A stretch of DNA of 64,000 nucleotides from Levilactobacillus fuyuanensis (GTDB lineage Bacteria > Bacillota > Bacilli > Lactobacillales > Lactobacillaceae). Each line of letters starts with the position of its first letter. Position 1 is the stretch's first letter. Under the pieces are notes generated by a model. It saw only the letters and a list, made by a program, of their open reading frames with translations, was not told where the DNA came from and ran no database searches. Below are positions 19,408 to 61,328 of this stretch, one piece after another. The DNA is taken from NCBI RefSeq assembly GCF_003946395.1, contig NZ_RHNZ01000010.1, positions 1-64,000 of the forward strand, written 5' to 3'. The translations under genes and the position numbers were made by a program.

Positions 19408-19597
19408 GCCTGCGGCAGTCAGGACTCCGCCTGCTGTGGGGACCGCCTACAGCCAAAAGGCGGGCTTCCGGCTCGGTTTGAAACCTCGCGAAGTTCATGT
19501 GAGTTTCCAAACACGTCCCACGGTGTAATCCCGGGAAGGTCCAATCGCCCGGGATAACGCCGTCGTCACAGCCATCTGCGTCCTGACTGCCTTCGGC
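19408..19597 (+). repeat. Family-1 structured intergenic element, copy A
   Basis: Ends are inverted repeats GCCTGCGGCAGTCAGGAC and GTCCTGACTGCCTTCGGC. Inside lie three hairpins: AGCC..AAG/CTT..GGCT, then GGTTTGAAAC-type against GTTTCCAAAC-type arms, then ATCCCGGG/CCCGGGAT. Shared core words are CTGCTGTGGGGA and GTCCCA. No reading frame. It sits just after the DMT transporter gene. Confidence 0.8.
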
Positions 19598-19714
19598 TAG
19601 TTACTACTCTTAACTTTAAGTTGAATCGTAAGGTTTTTTGAAATTTAGAAAAGTGGGGTCACGCAGGAGATATTGCGTGGCCTTTTATGATGTGGAAACA
19701 GATGAAAATGAATC

Positions 19715-19743
19715 TTGCTTTTCCACAACGGTTTCGGTATACT
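19715..19743 (+). promoter_or_regulatory. Promoter of the EF-G-binding protein transcript
   Basis: TTGCTT, exactly 17 bases, TATACT. The predicted start near 19750 precedes a perfect 7-pair hairpin (ATTCAGC/GCTGAAT, 19752-19771) and then the leader peptide ribosome binding site. Confidence 0.65.
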
Positions 19744-19789
19744 TATGAACAATTCAGCTAAATTGCTGAATACAAGGAGATGATCGACG

Positions 19790-19831
19790 ATGATGGCATC
19801 GTTATTTGTACGGAAGAGTGCTGGCTGTTAG
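19790..19831 (+). CDS. 13-residue leader peptide of the EF-G-binding protein gene
   Basis: ATG at 19790 has AAGGAG eleven bases upstream and opens MMASLFVRKSAGC, ending at TAG one base before the first arm of an attenuator. The position, good binding site and adjoining hairpins are those of a regulatory leader peptide. Longer overlapping frames here start too close to the binding site. No stall motif is recognised. Confidence 0.6.
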   Translation: MMASLFVRKSAGC

Positions 19832-19832
19832 C

Positions 19833-19884
19833 GACACTTTTCTGCAAAACCTTTCAGAGAAGTGTCTGGTTTAAATCTGAAAGG
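19833..19884 (+). promoter_or_regulatory. Alternative hairpins hiding the EF-G-binding protein start site
   Basis: Arm 1 (19833-19844, GACACTTTTCTG) pairs with arm 2 (19855-19866, CAGAGAAGTGTC) with one mismatch. Alternatively CCTTTCAGA at 19850-19858 pairs perfectly with TCTGAAAGG at 19876-19884, which contains the AAAGG of the downstream ribosome binding site. The two structures share CAGA at 19855-19858 and exclude each other. This is the form of a translation attenuator. Confidence 0.65.
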
Positions 19885-19895
19885 AAGAAACACTT

Positions 19896-20543
19896 ATGGA
19901 ACCAACAATCACCGCTTACGAATATAGTTATATCACCCAGCAAGTCAACGCCCTCGTCAGTGCCTACCTGTCCGTCAACGACAAGCGTATGCGCCGCGTC
20001 ATTCGTGATACCACGATTGAAAATATCGCGAGTCACTTGCCGGCAGATGAGCCCGTTGCTCAGGACTTTTTACGACAACTACAGCCCGATCGCATTACGC
20101 GCGAGGCTGCGGCCAAGCTACTACCGACGATTAAGCCGCTCGTAGTGCCGTTCCCAAGTCTGAGTCAGAAGCAACTGAGCAAGCTATTCCGTAAAGTGAA
20201 AAAATTAAAGCAACCGGAGTGGGCCGACGTTGATTTACACGAACTTACCTACCTCGGTTGGAATGACGGCGGTAGTCAGAAAAAGTATCTGGTAGCCCCG
20301 TATCAAGACCGACTCATTGGGATTCAAGGGGACATGGGGCCCAAGACCGTTAAAGGTGTCTGTGCCATTTGCCAAACAATCGGCAATGTTTCCCTGTTCG
20401 TCTCAACGACCAAGAAGTCCGGTCTGGGGACCTTCACACGAAATGGTAATTACATCTGCCGCGACAGCGCCCAGTGTAACCGCCAACTGATCGACCCCCA
20501 ACCACTCGCCGATTTCTTAGAGATTGTGCGACCGAAACGCTAA
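19896..20543 (+). CDS. Elongation factor G-binding protein (FusB family)
   Basis: A 215-residue cytosolic protein of the FusB/FusC type, which binds EF-G and frees it from ribosomes stalled by fusidic acid. The N-terminal half is a helical bundle (TAYEYSYITQQVNALVSAYL at 6-25). The C-terminal half is a treble-clef zinc site with C156 and C159 in VCAICQ, and C188 and C194 in CRDSAQC. Chromosomal relatives in lactobacilli are common and need not give drug resistance. The ATG has GAAAGGAAG upstream, inside an alternative hairpin preceded by a leader peptide. Two strong terminators follow. Family call is firm; physiological role is inferred. Confidence 0.88.
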   Translation: MEPTITAYEYSYITQQVNALVSAYLSVNDKRMRRVIRDTTIENIASHLPADEPVAQDFLRQLQPDRITREAAAKLLPTIKPLVVPFPSLSQKQLSKLFRKVKKLKQPEWADVDLHELTYLGWNDGGSQKKYLVAPYQDRLIGIQGDMGPKTVKGVCAICQTIGNVSLFVSTTKKSGLGTFTRNGNYICRDSAQCNRQLIDPQPLADFLEIVRPKR

Positions 20544-20556
20544 ACATTAACTTCCG

Positions 20557-20585
20557 AGAGGACTGCCAAGTGGTGGTCCTCTTTT
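20557..20585 (+). terminator. Rho-independent terminator (first of two)
   Basis: AGAGGAC/GTCCTCT stem with TTTT, 14 bases after the EF-G-binding protein stop. Confidence 0.7.
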
Positions 20586-20591
20586 AAATGG

Positions 20592-20636
20592 AAAAGGTAC
20601 CGCAACCCCTCGTGTTTAGGGGTTGTGGTACCTTTT
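20592..20636. terminator. Strong bidirectional terminator
   Basis: AAAAGGTACCGCAACCCCT pairs with AGGGGTTGTGGTACCTTTT almost perfectly around seven bases. The 100 bases after it, up to repeat copy B, hold nothing recognised. Confidence 0.88.
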
Positions 20637-20748
20637 GCTTCAGTAATGAGCATACTTAGCTGAATCGTTATAACTTTGATTATCTCTAGACTATAAGCGG
20701 TAAAAATGAGCCGCAAAGTTTATGGACGCTTCGTGTTAAGACCAGTTT

Positions 20749-20940
20749 AGCCGGAGGAAGCCAGAGATGGCGCCAGCCGTGACGACGTTGTTAGACCGGG
20801 CGATTGGTTCTTCCCGGCCTTACAACGTGGGACGTGTTTGGAAACTCGCATGATTCTTGCGAGGTTTCAAACCGAGCCGGAAGCCCGTTTTCTGGCTGCA
20901 GGCGGTCCCCACAGCGGCAGAATCTCTGGCAGCCGCAGGC
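20749..20940 (-). repeat. Family-1 structured intergenic element, copy B
   Basis: The inverted relative of copy A. Plus-strand end arms are AGCCGGAGGAAGCCAGAGAT and ATCTCTGGCAGCCGCAGGC. Hairpins in plus-strand order are GTTGTTAGACCGGG/CCCGGCCTTACAAC, GTTTGGAAACTCGCA/TGCGAGGTTTCAAAC and AGCCGGAA/TTCTGGCT. The element ends 13 bases from the copB stop codon, so it may also act as that gene's 3' structure. Confidence 0.8.
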
Positions 20941-20953
20941 GACGACCTAAACA

Positions 20954-23104
20954 CTAAGCGACCGTTTTTATCTTGAGGGTCATGGCGTTGATAGCGACGA
21001 TAATTGTACTCAATGACATCACAACCGCCCCCACCATAGGATTCAGCATGAAGCCAATCGGTGCCAACACCCCAGCGGCCAGTGGAATTGCAATCAGGTT
21101 GTACCCAGCTCCCCACCAGAGGTTTTCAGTCATCTTTCGGTGGGTTGCGCGAGCTAAGTCTAAGAATTGAATGACATCGGCGGGATCGCTGGAGACTAGG
21201 ATGATGTCGGCGGATTCAATCGCCACGTCGGTCCCAGAACCGATGGCGATGCCAATGTCGGCGCGGGCCAGACTAGGTGCATCGTTGACCCCATCCCCAA
21301 TGAAGAGAACCTTGCCATCCTTCTGATACTGTTGTACCAGTCGTTCCTTATCTTCCGGTAACAGGCGTGCTTGGACATCATCAATCCCAACGGAAGCGGC
21401 AACCTTGGCAGCCGTTTCCTGGTTATCACCGGTCAACATGACTGGCGTGATACCCTGCTTCTTCAACGAAGCCACCAGCGTTGCGGCAGCTGGCTTAATT
21501 TGATCACCTTGGGCGACCAAACCCAGAACGGTATCGCCGGCAACCAGGTAACTGATAGAGTTACCTTCAGCAGCAAACTTGGTGAATTGGTCGTGGTCGT
21601 AAGCTAATTGGTGCTGGTCGAGGTAGTTCACGGAGACGACGCCGTAAGTGGTGCCGGCAATGGTCCCGAATTGCCCCATCCCGGTTTCCTGACGGGTGTC
21701 AGTTGCAGCAGTAAACGTCAGGTCTTTGCCCGCGGCGGCAGTTAAGATCCCGGTAGCGAGCGGGTGACTTGAACCTTTTTCAAGGCTCGCCATCAGACTG
21801 AGAACCTCGTCTTCACTATGCTGGGTATCGAAGCTGACCAGGTGGTTGACCTTGAATTCACCCATCGTCAGCGTCCCCGTCTTATCCATTAAGGCAAAAT
21901 TGATTTGCTTGACTTGTTCCATAGCGTTCCGGTTCCGGATCAACAGGCCATTTTGCGCAGCCAAAGCGGTACTCCGTGAGACAACTAGGGGTACAGCCAA
22001 GCCCAATGCATGGGGGCAGGCGATAACGAAGACGGCAACGGCGACTGGTAGGGCGACCGCCAAGTCGGCAACGGTCAACCAGACGATGAAGGCGAGAATC
22101 CCGGCAAAGAGGGCGGCGTAGAAGAGCCAACCGGCCACGCGGTCCGCGAGATTTTCGGACTTTGATTTAGAATTTTGGGCGTCCTTGATGAGTTTCATCA
22201 CTTGGGCCAGGTAACCGGAATCCCCGGTACCCGTCACCTTGGCCGTGATTGTTCCCGTGCCATTGACGGACCCTCCGATGACTTGGTCACCGACCGTCTT
22301 ACGAACAGCCTTAGACTCACCGGTCACGAGTGACTCGTTGACGTCCGAACTCCCATCCAGGATTAAGGCATCGGCTGGCACTTGTTCGCCGGCGCGAATC
22401 GCTACGGTTTGGCCAACTTGCAGGTCACTCAGTTGGATGTCGGTCGTGTTACCTTGGTCGTCGACGACGTGGGCATCTTGTGGTAAAAGCTTACCCAAGG
22501 CTTCAACGGCGGAACCGGCATTCATGACCGTGTTCATTTCAATCCAGTGACCCAATAGCATGATGACGATCAACGTGGAGAGTTCCCAGAAGAAGTTGTT
22601 GACGGTCGGGGTCACGTGAAAGAGATTGTTGGCAATGACGGCGTAGATGCTGTAAATGTAGGCCACGCCGACCCCCATGCTGATCAGGGTCATCATGGCA
22701 GGCCGCTTCATTTGAAGCTCAGCCTTGGCGCCGCTGAAGAAGGGGGCACCGCCATAAAAGAAGAGGATCGTGCCGAGAATAGCGACAATCCAGTCACTCC
22801 CTGGGAAAATCCATTGAAAGGGTAGTGTCATGCCCATCATGGGGGACATCAGGACTACGGGAATGGTGAGAATCAGGGAAATCCAGAACTTGCGTTTCAG
22901 ATTGCCCATGTGCATTATGTGCCCGTCGCCCATGTCCATATCCATATGACTCATATCCATGTTACTCATGTCCTGGTGTTCAGAGCCGTCACCCATCGCC
23001 ATGCCGGCCATGTCGTCGTGACTCATCTGACTGTGATCCATGCCCTTCATGTCGTGGTTCATATTCATGTGGGTCATCCCCAAGTGTCGTTCAGTTTCTT
23101 TCAT
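20954..23104 (-). CDS. copB: Copper/silver-exporting P1B ATPase (CopB type)
   Basis: A 716-residue heavy-metal pump. The first 65 or so residues are a Met/His-rich cytosolic tail (repeats of MSNMDMSHMD kind) instead of a CxxC domain. The membrane metal site in M6 is CPHALGLA, the CPH signature of the P1B-3 group linked to Cu(II), Cu(I) or Ag export. The phosphorylation motif is DKTGTLTMGE, and the hinge is GDGVNDAPSLARADIGIA. ATG at 23104 has GGGGAG nine bases upstream and lies three bases behind the copY stop, so it is translationally coupled. No CopA or copper chaperone is visible nearby. Confidence 0.93.
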   Translation of the reverse strand: MKETERHLGMTHMNMNHDMKGMDHSQMSHDDMAGMAMGDGSEHQDMSNMDMSHMDMDMGDGHIMHMGNLKRKFWISLILTIPVVLMSPMMGMTLPFQWIFPGSDWIVAILGTILFFYGGAPFFSGAKAELQMKRPAMMTLISMGVGVAYIYSIYAVIANNLFHVTPTVNNFFWELSTLIVIMLLGHWIEMNTVMNAGSAVEALGKLLPQDAHVVDDQGNTTDIQLSDLQVGQTVAIRAGEQVPADALILDGSSDVNESLVTGESKAVRKTVGDQVIGGSVNGTGTITAKVTGTGDSGYLAQVMKLIKDAQNSKSKSENLADRVAGWLFYAALFAGILAFIVWLTVADLAVALPVAVAVFVIACPHALGLAVPLVVSRSTALAAQNGLLIRNRNAMEQVKQINFALMDKTGTLTMGEFKVNHLVSFDTQHSEDEVLSLMASLEKGSSHPLATGILTAAAGKDLTFTAATDTRQETGMGQFGTIAGTTYGVVSVNYLDQHQLAYDHDQFTKFAAEGNSISYLVAGDTVLGLVAQGDQIKPAAATLVASLKKQGITPVMLTGDNQETAAKVAASVGIDDVQARLLPEDKERLVQQYQKDGKVLFIGDGVNDAPSLARADIGIAIGSGTDVAIESADIILVSSDPADVIQFLDLARATHRKMTENLWWGAGYNLIAIPLAAGVLAPIGFMLNPMVGAVVMSLSTIIVAINAMTLKIKTVA

Positions 23105-23106
23105 AA

Positions 23107-23556
23107 TCAACAGCTCCCCTCATAGCCCTCCGGCAGGCAGTCACACGTAATCGTGGTCGGTGCCGTGGTTAACTTTTCTTGCAAATGCGTAATCAGTTCT
23201 TGAATATCTGTTTGGCTCAGTTCGGTTTGGTCGATGGCGTTGACGAAGGCTTGACCACGACACATCGCACACATCTGGTCGAGCTGACTGGTTAGCGCCG
23301 TGTCCATGGCGGCCTGTTCGGGAATGAGTGGGGTATAAATGAACTGCCGCCCATTCTTGGTGGTGGCGAGCGCGCCCTTCTTGACCAGTCGACCAATCAA
23401 GGTTTTAATCGTTGCGGCCTTCCAGTCGTGTTGCTGGCTGACCAAGTCGATGATGGTATGGCTGTCGGCCTCACCCAGCGTCCAGACGATTCGCATGACC
23501 GCCCACTCGGCGTCGGTAATGGCTTCGGTAATTTCAGTATTTTCGGTGATTGCCAC
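23107..23556 (-). CDS. copY: CopY family copper-responsive repressor
   Basis: A 149-residue BlaI/MecI-like winged-helix repressor. The N-terminal half (ITDAEWAVMRIVWTLGEADS, about 13-32, to NGRQFIYTPLI near 82) is the DNA-binding domain. Metal sensing in CopY normally uses a C-terminal CxCxxxxCxC. Here the end is CDCLPEGYEGSC, one cysteine short and differently spaced, with an extra CAMC near 107. GTG is the start, with AAAGGAG nine bases upstream. Two cop boxes upstream support autoregulation and control of copB. When copper is bound the repressor should leave the operator. Confidence 0.92.
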   Translation of the reverse strand: MAITENTEITEAITDAEWAVMRIVWTLGEADSHTIIDLVSQQHDWKAATIKTLIGRLVKKGALATTKNGRQFIYTPLIPEQAAMDTALTSQLDQMCAMCRGQAFVNAIDQTELSQTDIQELITHLQEKLTTAPTTITCDCLPEGYEGSC

Positions 23557-23575
23557 GATGAGTCACTCCTTTGTT

Positions 23576-23617
23576 TACGTTTGTAGTTTTACTTGATGGT
23601 TAGAGTTTACATCTGTA
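23576..23617. promoter_or_regulatory. Two cop boxes (CopY operators)
   Basis: TACATCTGTA at 23608-23617 matches the cop box TACANNTGTA exactly and is extended by flanking GTT/AAC symmetry. TACGTTTGTA at 23576-23585 matches nine of ten. Two boxes before copY are the usual arrangement. Confidence 0.8.
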
Positions 23618-23771
23618 AACGTAAAGTGTCAAGAACAAGGTTGCCATTCGATTACAAATTCACTAATAAGTAATTAAAATTTGTGGAAGTTTCCCAATAA
23701 TCGTGGTGTTACCGCCAAGACTTTGTATAATTGAAAGATAAGTTTAGTTCACGAAGGGAGCTTATTTACCT

Positions 23772-25031
23772 GTGGTTCTTTTAAAACGCTGGTTACGCGT
23801 CATTGCAATCGTCGGCTTGATTGCCACTATCTTGGCACCGGTAACGGCCCAAGCGGCAAGTAAGACGGTCAGTAAGGTACCGGCGCGCGCCGCTTACGTC
23901 ATGGATGCCAACAGCGGCCAAGTCCTTTACCAGCAAAATGCTGATAAACGGTATCCGATTGCCTCATTATCTAAATTACTAACGGTTTACCTCACCGTCA
24001 AAGCTATTAATGAAGGAAAACTCAGCTGGGATGAAGAGGTCACCATGCCGAATAACCTTTTGAAGTTAAGTCACAGCTATGCCTACTCCTCTTTGCGGAT
24101 GAAGGCGGGAGAAAAGTTTACGGTCAAGCAACTGGTCGCGGCAGCCATGATTGCCTCATCTAACAGTGCGGCCACCGAATTGGGTGAGATTGTCGCCGGC
24201 AGTAATGCGAAGTTCATCGCCCTGATGAATCAGCAAAGTGAGACGTGGGGGTTAGAAGCCCACTTCATCAGTTCGTCCGGTCTCGATAACTCCGATCTCA
24301 AGGATTACGATCTCGTGTTGCCCGATACCGGAAAGAGCGAGCAGAACCTGGTCTCCGCTAAAGCCATCACGACCGTGGCGCAACAACTCCTGAAGGCGGA
24401 CCCGGAGATCACCAAAATCGCCAGCCAAACGGAAGCCAGCATCAATGGCACCAAGATCTACAATGAAAACAGTTGTCTGCCAGGCAAGTCGCAGTACAAG
24501 AAGGAAAGCGGCATCGATGGTTTGAAGACCGGGTATACGGAAAACGCCAAACTGTGTTTCACGGCAACCTACACGGTTAACGGGCAACGCATGGTCGCCA
24601 CGATTCTGGGTGGGGACACGACGTTCTCGGCGATGAATAAGCTGATCAAGCAGTTGAAGCAGAAGTATAGCTTGGAAACGACACCACTGACTTCTCAGCG
24701 GATTGCGTTAGCCAATGGTCTAGCCACGACCGTGACCGCCACGCCAACGGCTTCACAGGCTGGTGTCTGGTATCAGGATAAGACGGCCAGTCTCACGACG
24801 AAGGTCGAGACAAAATTGACGCCGGCACAACTGAGCTCAGGAACGGTCGATGCGGGTGATCCCGTGGCGCAGGCCACCGTCACCGACACACAGACCGGGA
24901 CTGCCCAGCAGATCACGTACCGTGCTGACCAAACGGCGACCTTATTTGCTGAGCGCGTCGTGTTTACGGCCAAGTCGACGACTGATCAACTGTTGACGGC
25001 GTTGAAGCAACCAGTCGCGAGTTTGTTTTAA
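23772..25031 (+). CDS. dacA: D-alanyl-D-alanine carboxypeptidase (penicillin-binding protein)
   Basis: A class C low-molecular-weight penicillin-binding protein of 419 residues that trims the terminal D-alanine from peptidoglycan side chains outside the cell. A signal peptide ends near TAQAA at 25-29. The three active-site motifs are SLSK at 65-68, SSN at 129-131 and KTG at 252-254. The C-terminal part is the beta-rich PBP5 domain, and an amphipathic tail usually tethers such enzymes to the membrane. GTG is the start, with AAGGGAG upstream. Monocistronic with a terminator. The gene name follows function; orthology is inferred. Confidence 0.9.
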   Translation: MVLLKRWLRVIAIVGLIATILAPVTAQAASKTVSKVPARAAYVMDANSGQVLYQQNADKRYPIASLSKLLTVYLTVKAINEGKLSWDEEVTMPNNLLKLSHSYAYSSLRMKAGEKFTVKQLVAAAMIASSNSAATELGEIVAGSNAKFIALMNQQSETWGLEAHFISSSGLDNSDLKDYDLVLPDTGKSEQNLVSAKAITTVAQQLLKADPEITKIASQTEASINGTKIYNENSCLPGKSQYKKESGIDGLKTGYTENAKLCFTATYTVNGQRMVATILGGDTTFSAMNKLIKQLKQKYSLETTPLTSQRIALANGLATTVTATPTASQAGVWYQDKTASLTTKVETKLTPAQLSSGTVDAGDPVAQATVTDTQTGTAQQITYRADQTATLFAERVVFTAKSTTDQLLTALKQPVASLF

Positions 25032-25059
25032 GAGCTAAACCAATTAATATGATTTAACA

Positions 25060-25090
25060 GAATCGGGACAGCTGTCTCGGTTCTTTTTTT
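25060..25090 (+). terminator. Rho-independent terminator
   Basis: GAATCGGGACAG and CTGTCTCGGTTC pair (two G-U) and run into seven Ts after the carboxypeptidase gene. Confidence 0.85.
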
Positions 25091-25522
25091 GATAGCATTT
25101 CTTATAGGAAGAGAAAACATTATCGTTCGATAAGCCAAATATGTTAATGGGTAAGCGAACGGCCTGATTTATACCGTGCGCGTTGAATTCGTCCGGACTA
25201 TTTTATGATGAGATTTATAAGATTGAGATAGAAGGTTTTCAGAAAAAGAGGTCAACTTTATCCGAAAAATTGTGAACGAAACGAGTGACATGTCACGATT
25301 CTTAGGAGATTACTGTCCAATTGGTTGCAGAGGTTGCAACTTACAGCAAGCCTAGATTAACATAGTCGCCAGGTAACGGGCGGTTTGACTGCTGAGTGAG
25401 TACGGCCAGTGGCTATTCTGGCGATTGCAGGGGGAATGATGTTTTGGGAATTGTTTAAATTGCTAATTTTCGCGCTTAGGTGGTATATCAGAAGGAAAAA
25501 CCAGTTGGATCTTGGTTTTTAG

Positions 25523-25536
25523 TGAAAGCGGAAACA
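25523..25536. promoter_or_regulatory. cre-like site
   Basis: TGAAAGCGGAAACA fits the cre consensus at 13 of 14 positions, 285 bases before the GPH symporter gene. Confidence 0.5.
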
Positions 25537-25608
25537 TTTTTATTTTAAAATTTATCACAAGAACACGTATAACGATAAACGTTGATGTAGCAGTGTATGA
25601 GGCCCTGC

Positions 25609-25636
25609 GAATTGGTAGCAAATCGGCTACCAATTC
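25609..25636. repeat. Perfect 11-base inverted repeat
   Basis: GAATTGGTAGC, six bases, GCTACCAATTC. No T-run follows, so it is more likely an operator or RNA hairpin than a terminator. Confidence 0.6.
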
Positions 25637-25659
25637 ACATAATTCTTTTAATTTGTCCT

Positions 25660-25673
25660 TGAAAGCGATTTCT
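25660..25673. promoter_or_regulatory. cre-like site
   Basis: TGAAAGCGATTTCT fits the cre consensus at 13 of 14 positions, about 135 bases before the GPH symporter start. Confidence 0.55.
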
Positions 25674-25695
25674 ACACGTGGTACGCTGAACCTAA

Positions 25696-25716
25696 CTTGT
25701 ATACTAGTTATACAAG
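25696..25716. promoter_or_regulatory. Palindromic operator candidate
   Basis: CTTGTATA, five bases, TATACAAG. The TTGTATA..TATACAA form resembles operators of GntR-family sugar regulators. No such regulator gene lies in this window, so the protein would be encoded elsewhere. Confidence 0.5.
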
Positions 25717-25807
25717 AGAGCGTTACCGTAAATACCCTAGCTAGGATTACCACAGCGTTCAGTTAAGCCCTTATTTCGCACGTTTAGACTATATCTATTT
25801 TTAGGAA

Positions 25808-27323: not shown

Positions 27324-27417
27324 CTGTGGTTGGAATTTTTGTGAGATGTGATGCTAGCGGATAGAAATGAAAAAACTATCATAGGAGTGGAAATCCAGGG
27401 GGGTTAACCCAGCGTGG

Positions 27418-27606
27418 TCGCAGGAGGGTAGGGTGTAGCCAGCCGTGACGATGGTGTTAGGACGGGCGCTTGGTTCTTCCCGTGCTTACACCATGGGACG
27501 AGCTTGGAAACTCGCGGGTTTATGCGAGGTTTCAAGTCGAGGTCCAAGACCGCACTTTGGCTTGGACCGGTCCCCACAGCAGGCGGAATCCCTGCCAGCC
27601 GGAGGC
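27418..27606 (-). repeat. Family-1 structured intergenic element, copy C
   Basis: Right end TCCCTGCCAGCCGGAGGC; the left end is a degenerate complement. Three clear hairpins in plus-strand order: GGTGTTAGGACGGG/CCCGTGCTTACACC, GCTTGGAAACTCGC/GCGAGGTTTCAAGT, GGTCCAAG/CTTGGACC. Ends nine bases from the FtsX-type permease stop codon, as copy B does at copB. Confidence 0.8.
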
Positions 27607-27615
27607 AAAACTTAG

Positions 27616-30902: not shown

Positions 30903-30951
30903 ACTTGGATTCTCCTTGTCTTTTGCTTTTTTGTTGGTAATAGTTGTTATC

Positions 30952-31126
30952 GCCTGCGGCTGCCAGGGATTCCGCCTGCTGTGGGGAACGCCTGCAGCCG
31001 AAGGGCGGGCTTCCGGCTCGCCTGGAAACCTCGCCAAAGTTCAGCGAGTTTCCCAGGTCGTCCCGTGCTGGAAGCCCGCGCTTACAGCACGTAGTCATGG
31101 CGCCGACATCCCTGGCCTTCTCCGGC
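30952..31126 (+). repeat. Family-1 structured intergenic element, copy D
   Basis: Ends GCCTGCGGCTGCCAGGGAT and ATCCCTGGCCTTCTCCGGC. Internal hairpins: AGCCGAAG/CTTCCGGCT, CCTGGAAACCTCGC/GCGAGTTTCCCAGG and GTGCTG/CAGCAC. It lies 50 bases upstream of the ABC ATPase start, so the operon's promoter must be inside it, beyond it or close to its edge. A fragment of the end (GGCAACCGCAGGCGAC) recurs at 31223-31238. Confidence 0.8.
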
Positions 31127-31294
31127 TGAGGCATCGTTTACCAAGCAATGGTACCGCCATGGGTAGTTTCCATTTCTGGCAACGTGGCAGTTCAATTGAA
31201 TTCAGAAAAGTACGGTGTGTCATGGCAACCGCAGGCGACACTATACAATCCAGACATTAATCCAATTGTAGGCGGAAACCAATGTAGACGCAAC

Positions 31295-31308: not shown

Positions 31309-31315
31309 AAAACGC

Positions 31316-34056: not shown

Positions 34057-34902
34057 ATGCCAACAATTACGGATACTTTTACGTTGAATAACGGTCTCAA
34101 GATGCCCAAGGTTGGGTTTGGCACCTGGCAAACGCGGCCCGGTAAGGAAACTTACGATGCCGTCAGCAATGCCTTAAAGGCTGGGTACCGTTTCATCGAT
34201 ACCGCCAAGGCCTACAACAACGAGCAGAGTGTCGGCGAAGCCTTGCGGGACAGTGATGTGGCCCGCGAAGATATCTTCGTACAGACCAAGTTGCCCGCTG
34301 AATCCAAGTCCTACGACGCGGCAATGGCCGACTTCAAGAGCAGTTTAGCTGCCTTGGATCTCGACTACGTGGATTCTTACATCATCCACGCACCATGGCC
34401 ATGGGCACAAATGGGGTCTAACCACGATGCCGAAAACCGCGACGTTTGGCGCGCCATGCAGGATATCTATGCCAGCGGTCAGGCTAAGTCGGTTGGGGTC
34501 TCCAACTTCAACTCTCACGACCTGGAAAACCTGTTAACTTGGGATGGCTTAACCGTTAAGCCCGCTGTTGACCAGATTCAATACTACGTGGGTCACACGC
34601 AGGCGTCCATCGTGAAGACGGCGGAAGCCAATGACATCACGGTTCAGGCGTACTCCCCACTAGCTACCGGTGGGTTAATCGACAGTCCCGAATTGGAACG
34701 GGTCGCTGGTAATTACGGCGTGTCGATTCCACAGTTAGCCCTGCGCTACATCGTTCAAAAGGGCGTGGCGCCACTGCCTAAGGGCCGTTCCATGGTTCAC
34801 GTTCAGGCCAACACGGAGCTGGACTTTGAGATCAACGACAAGGATATGGCCTTTCTCGACCGGTTGTCGGATCCTAACGGCTGGCATCCAGTTGGTGACT
34901 AG
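34057..34902 (+). CDS. Aldo/keto reductase
   Basis: A 281-residue NADPH-dependent carbonyl reductase, a clear paralogue of the protein at 3926. The tetrad is intact: D48 and Y53 in FIDTAKAY, K78 in QTKLPAE and H111 in YIIHAPWPW. Both share the unusual PWPW after the histidine and the SNFNSHDLEN-type stretch near 150. The GC-richer codon choice fits a separate history from the 3926 gene. GGAGG lies upstream of the ATG. Monocistronic, ended by a strong terminator. Substrate unknown. Confidence 0.92.
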   Translation: MPTITDTFTLNNGLKMPKVGFGTWQTRPGKETYDAVSNALKAGYRFIDTAKAYNNEQSVGEALRDSDVAREDIFVQTKLPAESKSYDAAMADFKSSLAALDLDYVDSYIIHAPWPWAQMGSNHDAENRDVWRAMQDIYASGQAKSVGVSNFNSHDLENLLTWDGLTVKPAVDQIQYYVGHTQASIVKTAEANDITVQAYSPLATGGLIDSPELERVAGNYGVSIPQLALRYIVQKGVAPLPKGRSMVHVQANTELDFEINDKDMAFLDRLSDPNGWHPVGD

Positions 34903-53610: not shown

Positions 53611-53634
53611 TAGGAACCGCTTACATTTTCAGAA

Positions 53635-53684
53635 AAATCCATCACTGAATAGATCTACTTTGGGACCTGTTCTGTGATGGATTT
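53635..53684 (-). terminator. Terminator of the deacetylase gene
   Basis: AAATCCATCAC and GTGATGGATTT form a perfect 11-pair stem. On the minus strand it runs into TTTTTC, 93 bases after the deacetylase stop and just before the small-gene promoter. Confidence 0.75.
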
Positions 53685-53740
53685 ATTCTTATGCGTGCAG
53701 TGTTTTGTCAGTTTTGGTAAGTTCCAAATGATCGGGAGCG

Positions 53741-53756
53741 CTGGCAGCCGCAGGCG
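53741..53756 (-). repeat. End fragment of a family-1 element
   Basis: CTGGCAGCCGCAGGCG equals the terminal word of copies A, B, D and I. It lies 20 bases from the deacetylase stop codon, the same relation to a stop codon as copies B and C. No hairpin core remains. Confidence 0.55.
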
Positions 53757-53776
53757 AAAATACAACTCCTATCTGA

Positions 53777-54631: not shown

Positions 54632-54697
54632 CGCCTATTCCCCCAGTTTGTTCGTTTACTATTTAGTATAGGGGGTTCAATGAACGGTGGCACGCAT

Positions 54698-55522
54698 TTA
54701 GTCTGCGCGCTGGGCCAATCGACGATAATAGTCGATGGAATCCGGTTCTAAATGGAGGGCAGAAATGGCGTCACGGTCGGAAAGCTGGGGGTGCCGCCGC
54801 AGATAGTTAACTAAGTAACCTTGGTACAGCACGGTGGGGCTCAGGGCAAAGCCCACGACAGTTTCATCCGGCTTCAAATATTTATGCAGGCCGGGCAACG
54901 TTAAGTGGGGATCGGCCGCGGCCCGTTGCTTTAGGAACCAATCATTGGACTGGAACCGTTGCTGCAGGGGGGCCAGAAAAGCCTGGAGTTCATTTAAAAA
55001 TTGCTGGGCCGGTGCTGACCAGCTCTGTGTCTTCAAATTAGCTGTGAAATTGGGTTGAAGAAAGGCCTGAACCGGGTAGCCGTGAGCTACGAGTAGGAGT
55101 GTTAGCCGGGTATACACGTGGAGGCGCGGGTCGGCCAGCAGGCTGTTGAGGTCATCGACCCAGCGGTAGTTCAGCGGTTGGGCGGCTTGCTTGGGTTTAC
55201 TCTTCAGATCCAGAGTCGGCAGGTAGGGCGTCCAACTGTGTGAGAAGAGAAATTTAAAGTAGACGTTGAGGTGCGACAAGACCTTGTTGTAGGTCTGATT
55301 CTGAATCTTGCGGGCGTCGACCAACATGGCCAGATACTGCTCCACATCGGGCGTCTGGAGTTGATTGACGCGGTGGTCTCGCTGATAGGTGGGATTGAAA
55401 TTTTCTAGGTATTTGAAAAAGTCCGTCAGGGTCGCGTTGTACTCGTCTTCAGTGGCCTGCGCCATGGCCCGCTGCTGGAGCGTGCGATTGAAGGCGTCTT
55501 GATACGGATAGGTTTGGGACAT
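54698..55522 (-). CDS. Tyrosine-recombinase-like protein lacking catalytic residues
   Basis: A 274-residue protein with an integrase-type SAM-like N-terminal domain (ATEDEYNATLTDFFKYLENF near 23-42, and YNKVLSHLNVYFKFLF near 96-111). The C-terminal half keeps the general helical plan but not the chemistry. LLLVAHGYPVQAF replaces the first conserved arginine block, and no HxxR was found before the final IDYYRRL, where a tyrosine remains. It is therefore likely a DNA-binding relative and not a recombinase. No phage genes or attachment sites adjoin it. The ATG has AAGGAAGTG upstream. Confidence 0.7.
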   Translation of the reverse strand: MSQTYPYQDAFNRTLQQRAMAQATEDEYNATLTDFFKYLENFNPTYQRDHRVNQLQTPDVEQYLAMLVDARKIQNQTYNKVLSHLNVYFKFLFSHSWTPYLPTLDLKSKPKQAAQPLNYRWVDDLNSLLADPRLHVYTRLTLLLVAHGYPVQAFLQPNFTANLKTQSWSAPAQQFLNELQAFLAPLQQRFQSNDWFLKQRAAADPHLTLPGLHKYLKPDETVVGFALSPTVLYQGYLVNYLRRHPQLSDRDAISALHLEPDSIDYYRRLAQRAD

Positions 55523-55601
55523 GGCAAAACACTTCCTTTGCTAAAAATTACATTAACTTAGAGTGGCGACCACGACCGTGAAGTCGTGGCGGTGATGGGA
55601 G

Positions 55602-56642
55602 CTAGGCCGTGGTTGAGGTGCGGGCAGCCAAGACCCTTTCGCGTAATTGTTCTTTTTGATCGTCATCGATAAAAGCGGCGTCGATGGCGTTAAGTGTCAG
55701 GCGTTCCAGCAGAGACCAGTTCAGACCAAACTGCTTGCGAAGCGTGACGAATTCATCGGTTAAAGTGACGTTAGAGACGGTCCGGTCATCGGTGTTGACC
55801 GTGACCTTCAGGCCGGCACTGAGAAATTCCGATAACGGGAAGTCGCTCCAACTGTCGACAGCCTTGGTCTGGATGTTACTTGTTGGGCAAATTTCAATGG
55901 TGGCCCCGGCTTCTTTAGTTTGTGCGATTGCGGCCGGGAAGCCACTCATGTGAACGCCGTGGCCAATCCGTTTAGCACCCAGGGTCAGCGCAACCACAAC
56001 GTTATCGACGGGCCCGGCCTCACCGGCATGGATCGTAAATGGCAGGCCGGTTGCCTGACCCGCGCGGATGGCATCAACCAGGTCGATCGTTGGATGATTG
56101 TACTCGTCCCCAGCGAAGTCCAGGCCAACGACCCCCTCGTTCTTGAAGTCGGCAGCGGTTTGGAAGACGTCGATGCATTCGTCTAAGGGACGGTCACGCA
56201 TCGCACAGACGATGGCGTTGACTGGAATCCCAAAGTCGGCAGAACCGGCGTGCAGGCCCTCCAGTGTCGCGGCGATAGCTTCGCGAATGGAGAGACCCTT
56301 TTCGGTGAAAATGGCGGGGGCGAACCGCGTTTCTAAGTAAATCAGACCGTCTTCGGAGGCAGTCTGAACCATATCGTAACCAGCAATCCGGAGCTGTTCC
56401 GGCGTTTGCATCAGATCGGTCACAACCTGGAATCGTTTCAAGTAATCAATCAAACTGACGGTATCAATGGGTGCCGATACCAATGTCCGGAGTGCAGCGT
56501 CGCTGGCTGGCAACTCGGCACCGGTAATGGCTGCCATCTTCCGTAGCGCGGGTAGTGAGATCGATCCATCGAGGTGGCAGTGCAACTCAACTTTCGGATA
56601 CTGACGAACGGCGTCTGCGGTAAAAGGGTTAACTTGAGACAT
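55602..56642 (-). CDS. add: Adenosine deaminase
   Basis: A 346-residue zinc enzyme that turns adenosine and deoxyadenosine into inosine forms for purine salvage. The zinc histidines H21 and H23 are in ELHCHLDGSI, the third is in IHAGEAG near 213, where the glutamate is catalytic, and HGVHMSG near 237 follows. The zinc aspartate is in VNTDDRTVS near 293. AAGGAGG lies nine bases before the ATG. It stands alone; a 1.3 kb gene-free stretch lies upstream of it, the longest in the window. Confidence 0.95.
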   Translation of the reverse strand: MSQVNPFTADAVRQYPKVELHCHLDGSISLPALRKMAAITGAELPASDAALRTLVSAPIDTVSLIDYLKRFQVVTDLMQTPEQLRIAGYDMVQTASEDGLIYLETRFAPAIFTEKGLSIREAIAATLEGLHAGSADFGIPVNAIVCAMRDRPLDECIDVFQTAADFKNEGVVGLDFAGDEYNHPTIDLVDAIRAGQATGLPFTIHAGEAGPVDNVVVALTLGAKRIGHGVHMSGFPAAIAQTKEAGATIEICPTSNIQTKAVDSWSDFPLSEFLSAGLKVTVNTDDRTVSNVTLTDEFVTLRKQFGLNWSLLERLTLNAIDAAFIDDDQKEQLRERVLAARTSTTA

Positions 56643-56744
56643 GGCAAGGTCCTCCTTTGGAATATGTAACTTCCTTCCAGTATACCATGATAGCGCTTAA
56701 CAACGCGACCTTACGGGGAAAATTTGCCTTTCGGTCGCCTTGCC

Positions 56745-56912
56745 GGGTGGTGCAAATAAACCGGGACGCTGTGGGCGGGTGCCCGGAGCCAAAGAGCGGT
56801 CTCCGGACTTGCCTTTGAACCTCTGAGAACCGAGTTTCAAAGACACCAATGTTCTAAGCGGCTTAAACCGCCGCTAAGAACATTCCCACGGCTGAGCTTA
56901 TTTGCACCACCC
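56745..56912 (+). repeat. Family-2 structured intergenic element, copy F
   Basis: Perfect 15-base ends GGGTGGTGCAAATAA and TTATTTGCACCACCC. An inner stem GCTGTGGG/CCCACGGC closes three hairpins: CCGGAG/CTCCGG with loop CCAAAGAGCGGT, CTTTGAA/TTTCAAAG, and AATGTTCT..AGCGG against CCGC..AGAACATT. Confidence 0.8.
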
Positions 56913-56993
56913 TCACGGCTTAGGTAGATTTAGCCCGTAATCGCTATAGAATTTGCTTCCCATTTTCCTCGCTACGTGATGAGAGTAAACTAC

Positions 56994-57147
56994 GCTGCGG
57001 TGGCAGTCGTCTAAAGCCCAAGGGCGGTCTTTAGACTTGGCTTTAAGCCGCTGAGAACCACGTCTTAAAACCACTACATCTCTAAGCACCAAGGTTCGGC
57101 CGCCAAGAGGTGTCCCACGGCTGAGCCCATTTTCACCGCCCTTACGG
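56994..57147 (+). repeat. Family-2 structured intergenic element, copy G (end stem decayed)
   Basis: Keeps hairpin 1 (GTCTAAAG/CTTTAGAC), a weak hairpin 2 (CTTTAAG against CTTAAAA) and hairpin 3 (ACATCTCT against AGAGGTGT). GTCCCACGGCTGAGC and the right flank match copy F. The left outer arm is not complementary any more. Confidence 0.7.
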
Positions 57148-57708
57148 CTCACACGAATTTAGCCCGTAATCGCGTAGTAATAGCGACTGTCATTTGGTAC
57201 TGAATTCTGCTAATTTGGGGAATTGGTTTTAAAATGAAATGAAATTATTCGAAAAAACTCATTAGATTTAAGGACTGTTCTGTCGATTAACAAAATTTTT
57301 TCCATTTTATCGCATTTAAAAGGGAAAGTTAGCGAACAAACCGATTGGCTAAAACCGCGATATCTTGCGGTTTATCGCCATTAATGCGTGACGGTTGGAT
57401 TGCAAATTTTACAAATGTGAAATTTCATTAAAAAACGTTGTGTCTGGGGGCCAAACATTATAGAATTGATGTAATCGTCAGGGGGTTAACAAATCCCCCG
57501 TGTGCCGGAGTATTAGCACGATAAATAAATTTAAAAAATTAATATTAATAGGATAGGTAGTCATTGTTACGTGAACTATCTAAAAGCAGCCGAGAGTCCA
57601 GTCGACCGCAAGTTAAGTCTGTGTGCCAGAATCTTGGCTTGTCTGTGTGGGTGTGGCAACCGCCAGTTAAAATGGGTGTGTGTTGGGTTGAACGTGTGTT
57701 AGCCGTGA

Positions 57709-57875
57709 GGACGGTGAAAATGAATCCAGCCGTGAGAATTCTCTTAATGGTGGGTTTTACCATTTAGAGAATTGGTGTCTTGAAGACTCGGTTCGCAGAG
57801 GCTTCAAGCAAGTCCAGAGACCGCTCTTTGGCTCTGGACGTCCGCCCACAGCGTCACGATTCATTTTCACTGTCC
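57709..57875 (-). repeat. Family-2 structured intergenic element, copy H
   Basis: Ends GGACGGTGAAAATGAATC and GATTCATTTTCACTGTCC, one mismatch. In plus-strand order the hairpins are AATTCTCTTAATGGT/ACCATTTAGAGAATT, CTTGAAG/CTTCAAG and GTCCAGAG/CTCTGGAC with loop ACCGCTCTTTGG. Inverted relative to F and G, 96 bases before the acyltransferase gene. Confidence 0.8.
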
Positions 57876-57970
57876 GGTAAGGCGCTGTGAGGACGCTTTG
57901 AACCAGAGGCGCACGACACGCGTTTAACGTGGGGGAGTAATGGCAGCGTTAAAGAGAAGGAGCAATTGCG

Positions 57971-59908
57971 ATGAATCATTTTAACACGGAACTGACGCGA
58001 ATGGGGATGCGCGCGCGTCAGTCGGGCAAACGGCGGTATATCACCGGTTTCGATGGTATCCGGACGTTGGCCGTTTTGGGGGTTATTATTTACCATTTGG
58101 CGCCATCTACCTTGCAGGGTGGGTACTTAGGGGTGCCGATTTTCTTCGTCGTTTCAGGTTATTTAATTACATACTTATTGATTCAGGAGTTCGATACGCA
58201 GAATCACATTGATATTATTGGCTTTTACGGACGACGGTTAAAACGACTGTACCCGGCGCTGGTGACTATGATTCTTGGAACAACGGCCTACATTACGCTG
58301 TTCCAGCGGAGTCTGTTGGTCAATATCCGGGGAACGGTCATGACCAATCTGATCTACGGGTATAACTGGTTTGAAATCAATCACGGCCAATCGTATTTTG
58401 ATCGATTCAGCGGGGAATCGCCGTTTACCCATCTGTGGTCGTTGTCGATTGAAGGTCAGTTTTACCTGATCTGGCCGCTGGTGGTGCTGGGACTCTTGCT
58501 GTTTGTGCACAAGAAGTCCCAACGGCTGGGCATTCTCATGGCGGTCGCCGTGGTTTCGGCGATTGCAATGGCTGTGCTGTACAGTCCTAATAACCCCAAC
58601 CGGGTCTACTACGGAACCGACACGCGGATGTTTGCGATTCTAATTGGTGCGGGGATGGCCTTTGTTTGGCCGGCACACAAGCTGAATGCGGATGTCGGTA
58701 GGCAACAGCGACTGACTTTGGACGTTGTCGGCGGACTCTCGTTACTGGCGCTGATCTACCTATTCTTTACCATGAACGGGCAGGCGGCCAGCACGTATCG
58801 CGGCGGGATGTTCTGGTTCACGGTGTTGTCCGGTATTCTGGTTGGCACGGTGGCTCATCCCGGGAGCGATATGAACCGTATCCTGACGAACCGGTTGTTT
58901 AGCTATGTGGGTAAACGGAGCTACGGGATCTATCTTTACCAATTTCCCGTGATGATTTTCTACGAATCTAAGGTCAATATCGGGAATCATCCGCTATTTC
59001 ATGCGTTGATTGAGGTGGCGCTGATCTTACTGGTCACCGAGCTCAGCTATCGGTGGATTGAAAATCCGATGCGGCATTACCACTATGGGCAGTTGACGGG
59101 GGACGTTGTGCGGTACTTCCAGCAACCCAAGGCACATCGTCTGGCCAATACATTAGGTGTGGTCGCGGCCTTACTCTTTGGATTGACGGCAGTTGGTTTC
59201 GTACAGCAGCCCGCGGCGGCCAAGCCAACGGCGCTGCAACAGACCATCACTGCTCGGCAGGCTGCGGCAAAGAAAAAGAATGCGGCGGCCGTGAAAAAGC
59301 AGAAAGCCTTGGCGGCGGCTTCATCCAAGAAAAAGCACGACACGGCGGTAGCTTTCTCCAAGCTGTCAAAGGCTAATCAAAAGTTGGCGAAGTACTACTA
59401 CTTAACGCCAGATGAAGTCTTAAATAGTAAGCAAACGCCGTTAACCGCAATCGGAGATTCCGTCTTGCTGGATGATTCCGGTGATTTGCAAGACGTCTTC
59501 CCAGGTGCCATCGTTAATGGTAAGGTTGGCCGGCAAGCGGCCGACATGCACGATGTTATCGTGGGTATGGCCCAACAAGGTCAGCTGGCGAAGAATGTCT
59601 TGATCAATATCGGAACTAACGGCTACGTGACGCCGGAACAGGCCGATGACATTGTCCACGCTATCGGACCAGATCACCAGATCTTCTGGGTCACGGCCCA
59701 CGTGCCAACGCGTGAATGGCAGAATTCCGTGAACAATCGAATTGCCAAGACTGCGGATAAGTACCACAATGTCCACGTGATTGACTGGTACACGACGGCT
59801 AAGAACCAGCCTAAGTGGTTTGTCAGTGACCACGTTCACCCGAATAATTACGGGAACCGGCACTACACTTCGTTGATTGCTAAGGCAATTGCGCAGGCTA
59901 ATCAGTAA
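57971..59908 (+). CDS. OatA-like membrane acyltransferase with SGNH domain
   Basis: A 645-residue peptidoglycan or wall polymer O-acetyltransferase type protein. The N-terminal acyltransferase-3 unit (about 20-420) has ten or eleven membrane segments, with TLAVLGVIIYHLAPS carrying the conserved histidine near 40 and HLWSLSIEGQFYLIWP near 156. After a lysine/alanine-rich linker comes the extracellular SGNH domain: GDS with S497, then INIGTNG near 541, and D620 and H623 in SDHVHPN. OatA gives lysozyme resistance in related bacteria; the exact acceptor is not provable here. AAGGAG precedes the ATG. Monocistronic. Confidence 0.9.
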   Translation: MNHFNTELTRMGMRARQSGKRRYITGFDGIRTLAVLGVIIYHLAPSTLQGGYLGVPIFFVVSGYLITYLLIQEFDTQNHIDIIGFYGRRLKRLYPALVTMILGTTAYITLFQRSLLVNIRGTVMTNLIYGYNWFEINHGQSYFDRFSGESPFTHLWSLSIEGQFYLIWPLVVLGLLLFVHKKSQRLGILMAVAVVSAIAMAVLYSPNNPNRVYYGTDTRMFAILIGAGMAFVWPAHKLNADVGRQQRLTLDVVGGLSLLALIYLFFTMNGQAASTYRGGMFWFTVLSGILVGTVAHPGSDMNRILTNRLFSYVGKRSYGIYLYQFPVMIFYESKVNIGNHPLFHALIEVALILLVTELSYRWIENPMRHYHYGQLTGDVVRYFQQPKAHRLANTLGVVAALLFGLTAVGFVQQPAAAKPTALQQTITARQAAAKKKNAAAVKKQKALAAASSKKKHDTAVAFSKLSKANQKLAKYYYLTPDEVLNSKQTPLTAIGDSVLLDDSGDLQDVFPGAIVNGKVGRQAADMHDVIVGMAQQGQLAKNVLINIGTNGYVTPEQADDIVHAIGPDHQIFWVTAHVPTREWQNSVNNRIAKTADKYHNVHVIDWYTTAKNQPKWFVSDHVHPNNYGNRHYTSLIAKAIAQANQ

Positions 59909-59964
59909 CGGTTGAACTGCTAGTTTGCCGGTTACCTGTGTCTTATATCTTCAGAATAAAATGT

Positions 59965-60013
59965 AAACTGCGTTGTCCCAAGCTAATTGAAGCTGAGGGC
60001 AACGCAGTTTTTT
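59965..60013 (+). terminator. Rho-independent terminator
   Basis: AAACTGCGTTGTCC pairs with GGGCAACGCAGTTT (G-U and one mismatch tolerated) and runs into six Ts. Confidence 0.82.
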
Positions 60014-60075
60014 ACGAAATCAATGGTAGTTATAAGAGTAGGGCGATCATCTGGGGTGAGGTCCATTACCCGTCA

Positions 60076-60115
60076 AAAAGTCGTGAACGCTACTGATTTG
60101 CCGTTCGCGACTTTT
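60076..60115 (+). terminator. Second hairpin, possible terminator
   Basis: AAAAGTCGTGAACG and CGTTCGCGACTTTT pair around 12 bases. It lies in the 384-base gap between the acyltransferase and the wall protein; the remainder of the gap shows only AT-rich promoter-like DNA. Confidence 0.6.
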
Positions 60116-60292
60116 CGCTGGGAACACCGCTAACGCCCCGTAATGTTAGTTCCATTAATTTACCGGAGGACCGGGATTTTTAGCGATTTTTTAGCGAAAT
60201 TGGGAGATGATTTCTGCCCGAAAAAAAGGACCGTGTTATGATACCAATTGAGTTCAGGGATGAATTCGAAAATTTACTGGGGGGTAATTGTT

Positions 60293-61051
60293 ATGATGAA
60301 AAAAGTTGCAATGATCGCAGCAGCTGCGGCTATGGTATTACCATTGGGGATTGGTGCTATTGCTCCCGCAACCGGTGAGGTTACTGCTTTTGCGGCCGCT
60401 AAACCAGCAGCCAAAAAAGTGACTCACACGTTAGTCAGTGCAAAAGCTATCAAGAAAGCAGCGTTCCACGTTAAGAGTGGCAAGCCAGCGCTGTATAGCG
60501 CAGCGTTTGCAGCTGATCAAGCCAAGGTCGGCATGACCAAGAAAGGGACTTTAGCGGGCGGCATGACCTACTACGCAACCAAGAAGATTGTCGTTAAAGT
60601 CAAGGCTACCAAGACAACTAAGGCTAAGAAAGTCACCTACGCCTACATCAAGTCATCCAACGGCAAGGTTGAGGGCTGGGTCGCACTTTCTAAGTTAACG
60701 GCCGGCAAGTTCATGGCTGCTGACGGCAACGCCGACGCCAAGAAAGCCGCCGACAAGATTGCAGGGAAGACCTACACGTTGGTTAGCGCCAAGAGCATCA
60801 AGAAGAGCGCGTTCCACTTCAAGGCCAACCAACCTGCACTCTACGCCGGCAAATTCGCCGCTGACCAAGCTAAGGTAACGTTAACCAAGAAGGGCGTATT
60901 GCCAAACAGCAAGACCTTCTACGCTACCAAGACAATTACCATCAAGAAAGCTAAGAAGAACGTGAAGTACGACTACGTGACCAGCGGCAAGACCAAGGGC
61001 TGGGTCTTAGCATCTCAACTGACTGCCGGCAAATTCATGGCAGCCGATTAG
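60293..61051 (+). CDS. Secreted lysine-rich wall protein with two tandem repeats
   Basis: A 252-residue exported protein. The signal peptide (MMKKVAMIAAAAAMVLPLGI, cleavage probably near AFAA) is followed by two copies of a module of about 95 residues. Each begins TLVSAKAIKK or TLVSAKSIKK and ends LTAGKFMAAD, near 40-145 and 157-252. Each carries a GW-type ending (EGWVALSKL, KGWVLASQL) like SH3-type wall-binding modules. The chain is very basic, so binding to teichoic acid is plausible. ATG at 60293 has GGGGGG upstream. No LPXTG. Function beyond wall binding unknown. Confidence 0.8.
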   Translation: MMKKVAMIAAAAAMVLPLGIGAIAPATGEVTAFAAAKPAAKKVTHTLVSAKAIKKAAFHVKSGKPALYSAAFAADQAKVGMTKKGTLAGGMTYYATKKIVVKVKATKTTKAKKVTYAYIKSSNGKVEGWVALSKLTAGKFMAADGNADAKKAADKIAGKTYTLVSAKSIKKSAFHFKANQPALYAGKFAADQAKVTLTKKGVLPNSKTFYATKTITIKKAKKNVKYDYVTSGKTKGWVLASQLTAGKFMAAD

Positions 61052-61071
61052 TTAAATACTCCAGTATATTT

Positions 61072-61107
61072 AAAAAACGGATGGCTTACGGGCCATCCGT
61101 TTTTTTT
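61072..61107 (+). terminator. Rho-independent terminator
   Basis: AAACGGATGGC pairs with GCCATCCGTTT and continues into eight Ts. Confidence 0.9.
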
Positions 61108-61135
61108 GCGGTTTAAACGTCAATTGTTGTGTGTC

Positions 61136-61328
61136 GCTTGCGGCTGCCAGGGGTTCCACCTGCTGTGGGGACCGGTCGGTAAAAGCCTGAGAAGCGGTCT
61201 TTTACCTCGACTTGAAACCTCGCGGAGAAGCACGAGGTTCCAAGTTCGTCCCATGGCGTAAGCACGGGAAGAAGCAAGCACTCGTTCTAACGCTATCGTC
61301 ACGGCCGGTTCTACCCCTGGCCTCCAGC
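61136..61328 (+). repeat. Family-1 structured intergenic element, copy I
   Basis: Ends GCTTGCGGCTGCCAGGGGT and ACCCCTGGCCTCCAGC. Hairpins: GGTAAAAG/CTTTTACC, CTTGAAACCTCG/CGAGGTTCCAAG, and GCGTAAGCACG against CTCGTTCTAACGC. The 119 bases between it and the symporter stop contain only a small ACTGTTT/AAACAGT hairpin. Confidence 0.8.

Follow-up and report, generated by a model that had tools for sequence, protein, structure and literature searches.

A dispersed family of three-hairpin intergenic modules in Levilactobacillus, probably parts of a MITE-like transposon

Positions 1-64,000 of contig NZ_RHNZ01000010.1, the stretch of DNA called here the window, belong to the 2.72 Mb genome of Levilactobacillus fuyuanensis (G000) and carry a set of intergenic elements, each made of an outer stem followed by three hairpins. 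An earlier note, made from the sequence of the window alone, had described eight such elements and two end fragments and had proposed that they were either a structured RNA family or a non-autonomous mobile element. We consider it probable that each element is a folded module belonging to a non-autonomous transposon family of the kind known as miniature inverted-repeat transposable elements (MITEs), present in Levilactobacillus and Lactiplantibacillus. Modules are dispersed, they are turned over at their sites and their pairing is strand-specific. In relatives of L. fuyuanensis they lie in mobile units with inverted ends and flush target duplications, which establishes the second of the two proposals there; the copies of the window would descend from such end-bounded units. 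The modules may in addition act as structured RNA, because the fold appears selected on one strand and is kept in place in many orthologues.

The compensatory changes described in the earlier note are real and persist when more copies are added. Two related subfamilies, A (~195 nt) and B (~186 nt), were aligned from their better-scoring copies. After trimming, the proportion of paired cells was 96.6% in the A alignment and 98.8% in the B alignment, and 35 of 63 pairs (A) and 36 of 62 pairs (B) changed on both sides. The number of cells changing on both sides was 156 in A and 194 in B, compared to 44.7 and 48.3 after shuffling, and none of the 500 shuffles, which ignore relatedness, reached the observed value in either subfamily. 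Sliding the stem partners against each other abolished the covariation signal in A and in B. A wider set of copies gave 95.0% paired cells in A (75 copies) and 97.3% in B (49 copies). The arms and loop of hairpin 1 were found as the note had quoted them. Its conserved architecture holds for the core, but complementarity runs beyond it: copy-specific pairing extends into the flanks in 40 of 52 A copies and 25 of 39 B copies tested. To call compensatory change the mark of selected structure, as the note had done, is too strong on this evidence alone, since template switching can create hairpins and keep their stems paired (as parts of PMC8794818 describe) and hairpins are swapped between copies.

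On the strand on which the structure had originally been read, variable pairs were G-U or A-C in a ratio of 21:49 (A) and 27:75 (B); on its reverse, hereafter strand R, the ratio was 68:24 (A) and 76:22 (B). Predicted folding energy was lower on strand R for 25 of 31 A copies and 31 of 32 B copies. The G-U/A-C ratio exceeded 1 in all four gene contexts (2.0-3.7 in A, 2.75-4.2 in B), the excess not being significant by itself in two of the eight single contexts. Copies from other species, picked from the better matches, gave 56:23 (21 A copies) and 43:20 (19 B copies). These pairing patterns suggest that the fold is selected on one strand and that this strand is the reverse of the one first proposed. 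A three-hairpin fold kept on one strand suggests in turn that the copies do something after landing.

To define the extent of the family, two covariance models, R1 trained on 29 B copies and R2 on 26 A copies, were used to search genomes of the genus, the family and the order; they also recovered the eight elements of the window. Merging the R1 and R2 matches, after removal of the R1 rows representing A copies and of the four weakest R2 rows, gave at least 208 copies in the L. fuyuanensis genome (145 A, 63 B), a lower bound as 150 of 864 (R1) and 150 of 854 (R2) first-look candidates were scored; 139 (R1) and 149 (R2) of the candidates scored matched at E <= 0.1. At ~190 nt each, 208 copies make up ~1.5% of the genome and stand at the borders of many genes. 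Sequence searches of the same genome with single elements listed 41 matches with one query and 42 with another, so the elements are not due to chance. R1 also scores A copies (~22-86 bits), which indicates that the two subfamilies have a common architecture. Within the genus, R1 matches were present in 33 of 35 genomes (E <= 0.001), with at least 75 in the richest when the best 75 candidates of each were scored; no R1 match was seen in genomes G011 and G024. With stricter filters and the best 8 candidates per genome, R2 matches were detected in 61 of 301 family genomes, representing 9 of 40 genera, and in 8 of 295 genomes at the level of the order, all of them Lactobacillaceae. Four genomes of other genera (G082, G130, G112 and G071) gave weak R2 matches to shorter relatives of ~142-163 nt, perhaps a third subfamily. 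Plasmids contained no match to an A query and a B query from the window, to one further A copy or to one whole unit, and phages contained none to the two window queries; these searches rule against carriage by plasmids or phages.

Evidence for mobility came from relatives. In genome G005, the R2 matches occur as divergent pairs whose centres, as read by eye, are mostly 61-116 nt long, and about half of 20 such pairs share one unit of ~600 bp with conserved centre and ends. The ends are inverted repeats near CTRAAGGTTGAAAG. A search for such ends over every fetched locus, the named relatives having been fetched with one window protein and being Levilactobacillus and Lactiplantibacillus species, gave 22 candidate end pairs 300-3000 bp apart. 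Eighteen of them, shorter than 900 bp or with a duplication, were inspected and four longer ones were left aside; L219 and L313, with weak ends and no duplication, were then left out, so that 16 units were taken further. A flush direct repeat of 6-9 bp, as expected of a target duplication, bordered 9 of the 16 units (9 of all 22 candidates), compared to 0 of 2000 controls in which left and right flanks were re-paired at random. The nine are L142 (G003), L298 (L. suantsaiihabitans), L302 (Lactiplantibacillus pingfangensis), L315 (L. fujinensis), L320 (Lactobacillus sp. HBUAS51381) and L338, L354, L357 and L371 (G005); they span at least four Levilactobacillus genomes in addition to Lactobacillus sp. 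HBUAS51381 and Lactiplantibacillus pingfangensis. With a length of 393-637 bp, largely filled by modules, they would be too small for a transposase gene. A divergent pair is held by 11 of the 16 units and the other 5 show one module.

The fate of individual copies was followed by comparison with the sister genome L. parabrevis ATCC 53295 (G019). Among the 66 L. fuyuanensis copies scoring at least 60 that were tested, 54 gave a resolved comparison and 12 did not. At the resolved sites, 35 copies had a counterpart of the same subfamily and orientation and up to 9 one of the other subfamily in the same orientation, while 6 corresponded to a remnant or to another orientation and 4 to an empty site; a few of the 54 share one L. 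parabrevis copy (e.g. window tandem copies 56736 and 56976), and one of the 9, at C34:174843, is better interpreted as a copy that L. parabrevis lacks. The reverse comparison gave 30, 8, 5 and 4 sites in the same classes, with 20 left unassigned. Several empty sites, in both directions, keep remnants of the element ends, which indicates that deletion occurs. The end fragments reported at 31223 and 53741 in the window are of the same kind: the sequences are real, and each is the 3' part left over from a copy that L. parabrevis has.

Two loci showed unusual configurations. At C34:174843-175466 (in L248) of L. fuyuanensis, and at L196, an A module lies between the arms of a B outer stem; the chimera at C34:174843 also occurs in L. 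parabrevis, which seems to lack the adjacent B copy. At C54:87488-87680, the module is deleted in L. parabrevis and the outer stem is left, with two of its base pairs changed on both sides between the two species.

Identity exceeded 0.85 in 21 of 34 full-length orthologue pairs of the same subfamily. Six change-rich pairs were inspected and most look mosaic or replaced. Double changes were isolated in 7 of 7 cases in pairs with at least 0.87 aligned identity and in 87 of 158 cases in lower pairs. In the 20 pairs at or above 0.87, single changes since the split from L. parabrevis led to G-U more often than to A-C (53 vs 27, p 0.005), with 13 pairs favouring G-U and 2 favouring A-C; the changes were GC to GU (31), GC to AC (12), AU to GU (22) and AU to AC (15), and 13 base pairs changed on both sides. 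Orthologous copies selected for identity diverge less than their flanks: in 19 pairs, differences amounted to 216/3538 (6.1%) in the element, 187/1123 (16.7%) in the 5' flank and 125/1131 in the 3' flank, which is partly coding, the choice of pairs at identity >= 0.87 lowering the element figure and the skipping of flanks below 0.7 identity lowering those of the flanks. C/T and A/G transitions showed no bias in the flanks (66:61 and 35:43) and stood at 110:72 in the element; at unpaired element sites, C/T differences outnumbered A/G differences (68 vs 32). A mutational strand bias as the source of the wobble excess was rejected because the flanks show none; a residual mutational bias inside the element may exist.

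Neighbouring copies less than 600 bp apart in the L. fuyuanensis genome were divergent (5' to 5') in 41 cases, tandem in 4 and convergent in none, and the 42 named loci, which represent one region across different species and are not independent, comprised 26 divergent, 4 tandem and no convergent arrangements. The median distance to a facing stop codon was 30 nt on the 3' side of the module (44 single copies) and 199 nt on the 5' side (35), as determined with a home-made gene caller on two sister genomes pooled. B modules are mostly upstream of genes (22/30), but 18/29 of the A modules point towards the end of a gene, and the possibility of a leader RNA was rejected on this basis. An intrinsic-terminator-like site of the facing gene lies beyond the module in 14/27 and 9/17 cases and between gene and module in 8/27 and 5/17; where no facing gene needs one, such a site was found in 2/18. 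When 5' flanks were compared with each other, 189 of 4465 pairs matched and most of the 25 rows inspected read as neighbouring modules; on these grounds the 5' flank was rejected, not fully, as a part of the element.

A scheme that would connect these observations is as follows. The intact unit, as observed in relatives, is 390-640 bp long and consists of an end, 45-95 bp, an outward module, a centre of 24-112 bp, an opposite outward module, 45-95 bp and an end, some units having a single module. A transposase provided in trans would insert the unit with a duplication of ~8 bp, and the ends would decay after insertion. Copies would be lost by internal deletion, leaving short end remnants, or another copy would overwrite them, in some cases one from the other subfamily with the orientation unchanged, and the module would keep its three-hairpin fold on strand R. 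Divergent modules would explain the geometry of the pairs, and loss of a partner the long 5' side of single copies. Judging from the pairing pattern, strand R may act as RNA and may influence neighbouring transcripts. A further step, that the modules are a mobile functional RNA planted at gene borders and that copies are kept by selection after the ends decay, is possible though doubtful; if it were true, well over a hundred loci per genome would carry the same RNA device.

Several results weigh against this interpretation. Seven of the 16 units lack a duplication. Ends with a duplication were found in 0 of 150 L. fuyuanensis and L. parabrevis units (controls 0-1) by a procedure that was end-agnostic and had no positive control; both ends were loosely similar, with no duplication, in 4 of these units. 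Pairs from L. fuyuanensis and L. parabrevis likewise had no outer inverted repeat (0/14 and 2/13 above the 95th percentile), a test that says nothing about G005, where different units have similar ends. It is for these reasons that the window copies are read as old or end-less relatives of the mobile units. Upstream of single copies, traces of an inverted partner are rare (2/70), and both are at the 30950 site in two sister genomes. The low divergence of the elements comes from pairs chosen for identity. No transposase partner was found in the fetched loci, in plasmids or by co-distribution: Y1 transposases (PF01797), encoded in 23 of 35 genus genomes, are absent from the element-rich G002, G003, G020 and G029 and are found in G011 and G024, the two without R1 matches, and a Y1 transposase was rejected as the mobiliser since it does not co-distribute with the family. 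In the fetched loci, whole genomes not having been searched, no end pair 900-3000 bp apart with a duplication of at least 5 bp was present that could mark an autonomous partner, and plasmids queried with two unit ends gave no lactobacillar match. Finally, a sigma-A-like promoter upstream on strand R was not enriched in convergent contexts (17 copies, mean z 0.03), so that a route to RNA from strand R is not evident there. On the opposite strand, the same scan did detect an enrichment in '-R-' contexts (25 copies, mean z 0.67), in which the gene needs a promoter. A small RNA with its own promoter was rejected for lack of this enrichment, a slight excess in A from a cruder scan not being borne out.

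Other explanations account for part of the data. If the elements were a cis-acting structured RNA family (leader, 3' untranslated region or processing element) selected at each site, with spread as a by-product, the strand-specific wobble excess since speciation, the low divergence of the selected orthologues with respect to flanks and the position at gene borders, with the 3' end close to facing stop codons, would fit well. This explanation is nevertheless unlikely, as the strand bias holds where neighbouring genes would transcribe the opposite strand, no promoter of the elements was detected in the 17 convergent cases, the other subfamily occupies up to 9 of 54 sites in the sister species and units with transposon ends exist. 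Alternatively, the fold might serve not in RNA but in single-stranded DNA while the element moves, as is the case for IS200/IS605, REP or integron attC recombination; a strand-specific fold independent of gene context, the lack of a detected promoter and the paired inverted arrangement all agree with this. Single-strand Y1 transposition is not known to make target duplications, whereas inverted ends and ~8-bp duplications are found in the mobile units; moreover, Y1 genes do not co-occur with the family and a role during movement leaves the constraint on copies without ends unexplained, which makes this alternative quite improbable.

We regard it as very improbable that the hairpins are neutral, that is, palindromes whose pairing is maintained by template-switch mutation and by gene conversion between copies and which have no function after insertion. 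Template switching does have the capacity to create and maintain hairpins (according to parts of PMC8794818), copy-specific complementarity reaches unconserved flanks and the low-identity orthologue pairs inspected are mosaics with swapped hairpins. However, an excess of G-U over A-C on one strand is not expected from such a process, transitions are biased in the element and not in the flanks, all seven double changes in pairs at or above 0.87 are isolated (87 of 158 in lower pairs) and selected orthologous elements diverge less than flanks. With the modules taken as parts of a MITE-like transposon, the family combines covarying RNA-like structure with transposon spread, which are seldom considered together. 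Comparing orthologues between sister species provides a natural test of whether selection or template switching is behind the covariation and, should the modules work as RNA, their effect could be measured at hundreds of replicate loci across the genus.

All eight elements reported in the window are real and lie near the places originally given. Their boundaries were set with R1 (subfamily B) and R2 (subfamily A), and the strand listed is the one whose fold is selected, strand R.

Table 1. Modules and remnants of the element family in the window
Feature	Position	Strand	Remarks
Subfamily A module	19406..19599	-	R2 183.6 bits; orthologue in L. parabrevis
Subfamily A module	20748..20942	+	R2 205.4 bits; L. 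parabrevis has the same site and orientation, sequence largely different
Subfamily A module	27415..27608	+	R2 199.9 bits; orthologue 97% identical
Subfamily A module	30950..31128	-	R2 129.9 bits
3' remnant, deleted right member of the putative 30950 pair	31221..31241	+	Whole right copy kept there in L. parabrevis
3' remnant of a deleted A module	53740..53757	+	A module sequence at the orthologous L. parabrevis site
Subfamily B module, left member of a divergent arrangement	56736..56921	-	R1 212.8 bits; orthologue 93% identical
Degenerate subfamily B module, tandem with 56736..56921	56965..57150	-	R1 101.8 bits (vs ~200)
Subfamily B module, right member of a divergent arrangement	57700..57884	+	R1 194.9 bits; orthologue 96% identical
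Subfamily A module, 3' of an intrinsic terminator	61134..61330	-	R2 183.8 bits

A convergent ABC-transporter-like gene has its stop codon 8 bp from the A module at 27415. Comparison with L. parabrevis suggests that the module at 30950 was the left member of an ancestral divergent pair. The site corresponding to that of 61134 is without a module in G005 and in L. hammesii DSM 16381 (G010). Elsewhere in the window, two reading frames at 3926-4774 and 34057-34902 have DNA stretches that are 72-77% similar (repeats D2 and D5) and are probably paralogues.

No match to a described RNA family was found for the elements; the earlier note had not recognised one either. Rfam 15 gave no match above the gathering threshold in the 64-kb window, and permissive scans of two stretches gave sub-threshold matches only; the best of them, Atu_C9 (E 0.00044, 22.6 of 40 bits), falls on the terminator next to the 61134 element. 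Nothing that turned up in searches of open-licence literature was recognised as describing the family.

Known dispersed repeats resemble it to various degrees. REP/BIME and REPIN-RAYT elements are also dispersed palindromic intergenic units, often in inverted pairs, and depend on Y1-type RAYT transposases, whereas no Y1 transposase co-occurs with the lactobacillar family. REPs measure 20-40 bp (PMC3733652). EFAR of Enterococcus, named there among bacterial MITEs and compared by description only, is a lactic-acid-bacterial relative; in contrast, the order-level R2 matches all fell inside Lactobacillaceae (8 of 295 genomes, best 8 candidates each). In a survey of bacterial stem-loop families, Lactobacillus is mentioned once, for L. 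johnsonii (PMC2267715). Bacterial MITEs are the kind to which the family belongs: Correia/NEMIS, ERIC and QMITE, as far as described in parts of PMC10969869, measure hundreds of bp, are intergenic and of high copy number with predicted stem-loops, and share inverted ends, short target duplications and many copies without ends. They differ, in a comparison by description only, in that the lactobacillar units carry one or two 190-nt three-hairpin modules, with pairs placed 5' to 5', strand-specific covariation and two subfamilies. The main text of that review has no word beginning 'lactobac' or 'enterococc' (PMC10969869). In lifestyle, the closest analogue appears to be the bcr1-bcr18 repeats of Bacillus cereus, which are likewise group-specific dispersed repeats with mobile-element features. 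According to the relevant parts of PMC3446304 and PMC6542083, the secondary structure of some of these is conserved, and transcription is reported for about half of the copies; they differ, again by description only, in that their mobility is tied to a TTTAT motif.

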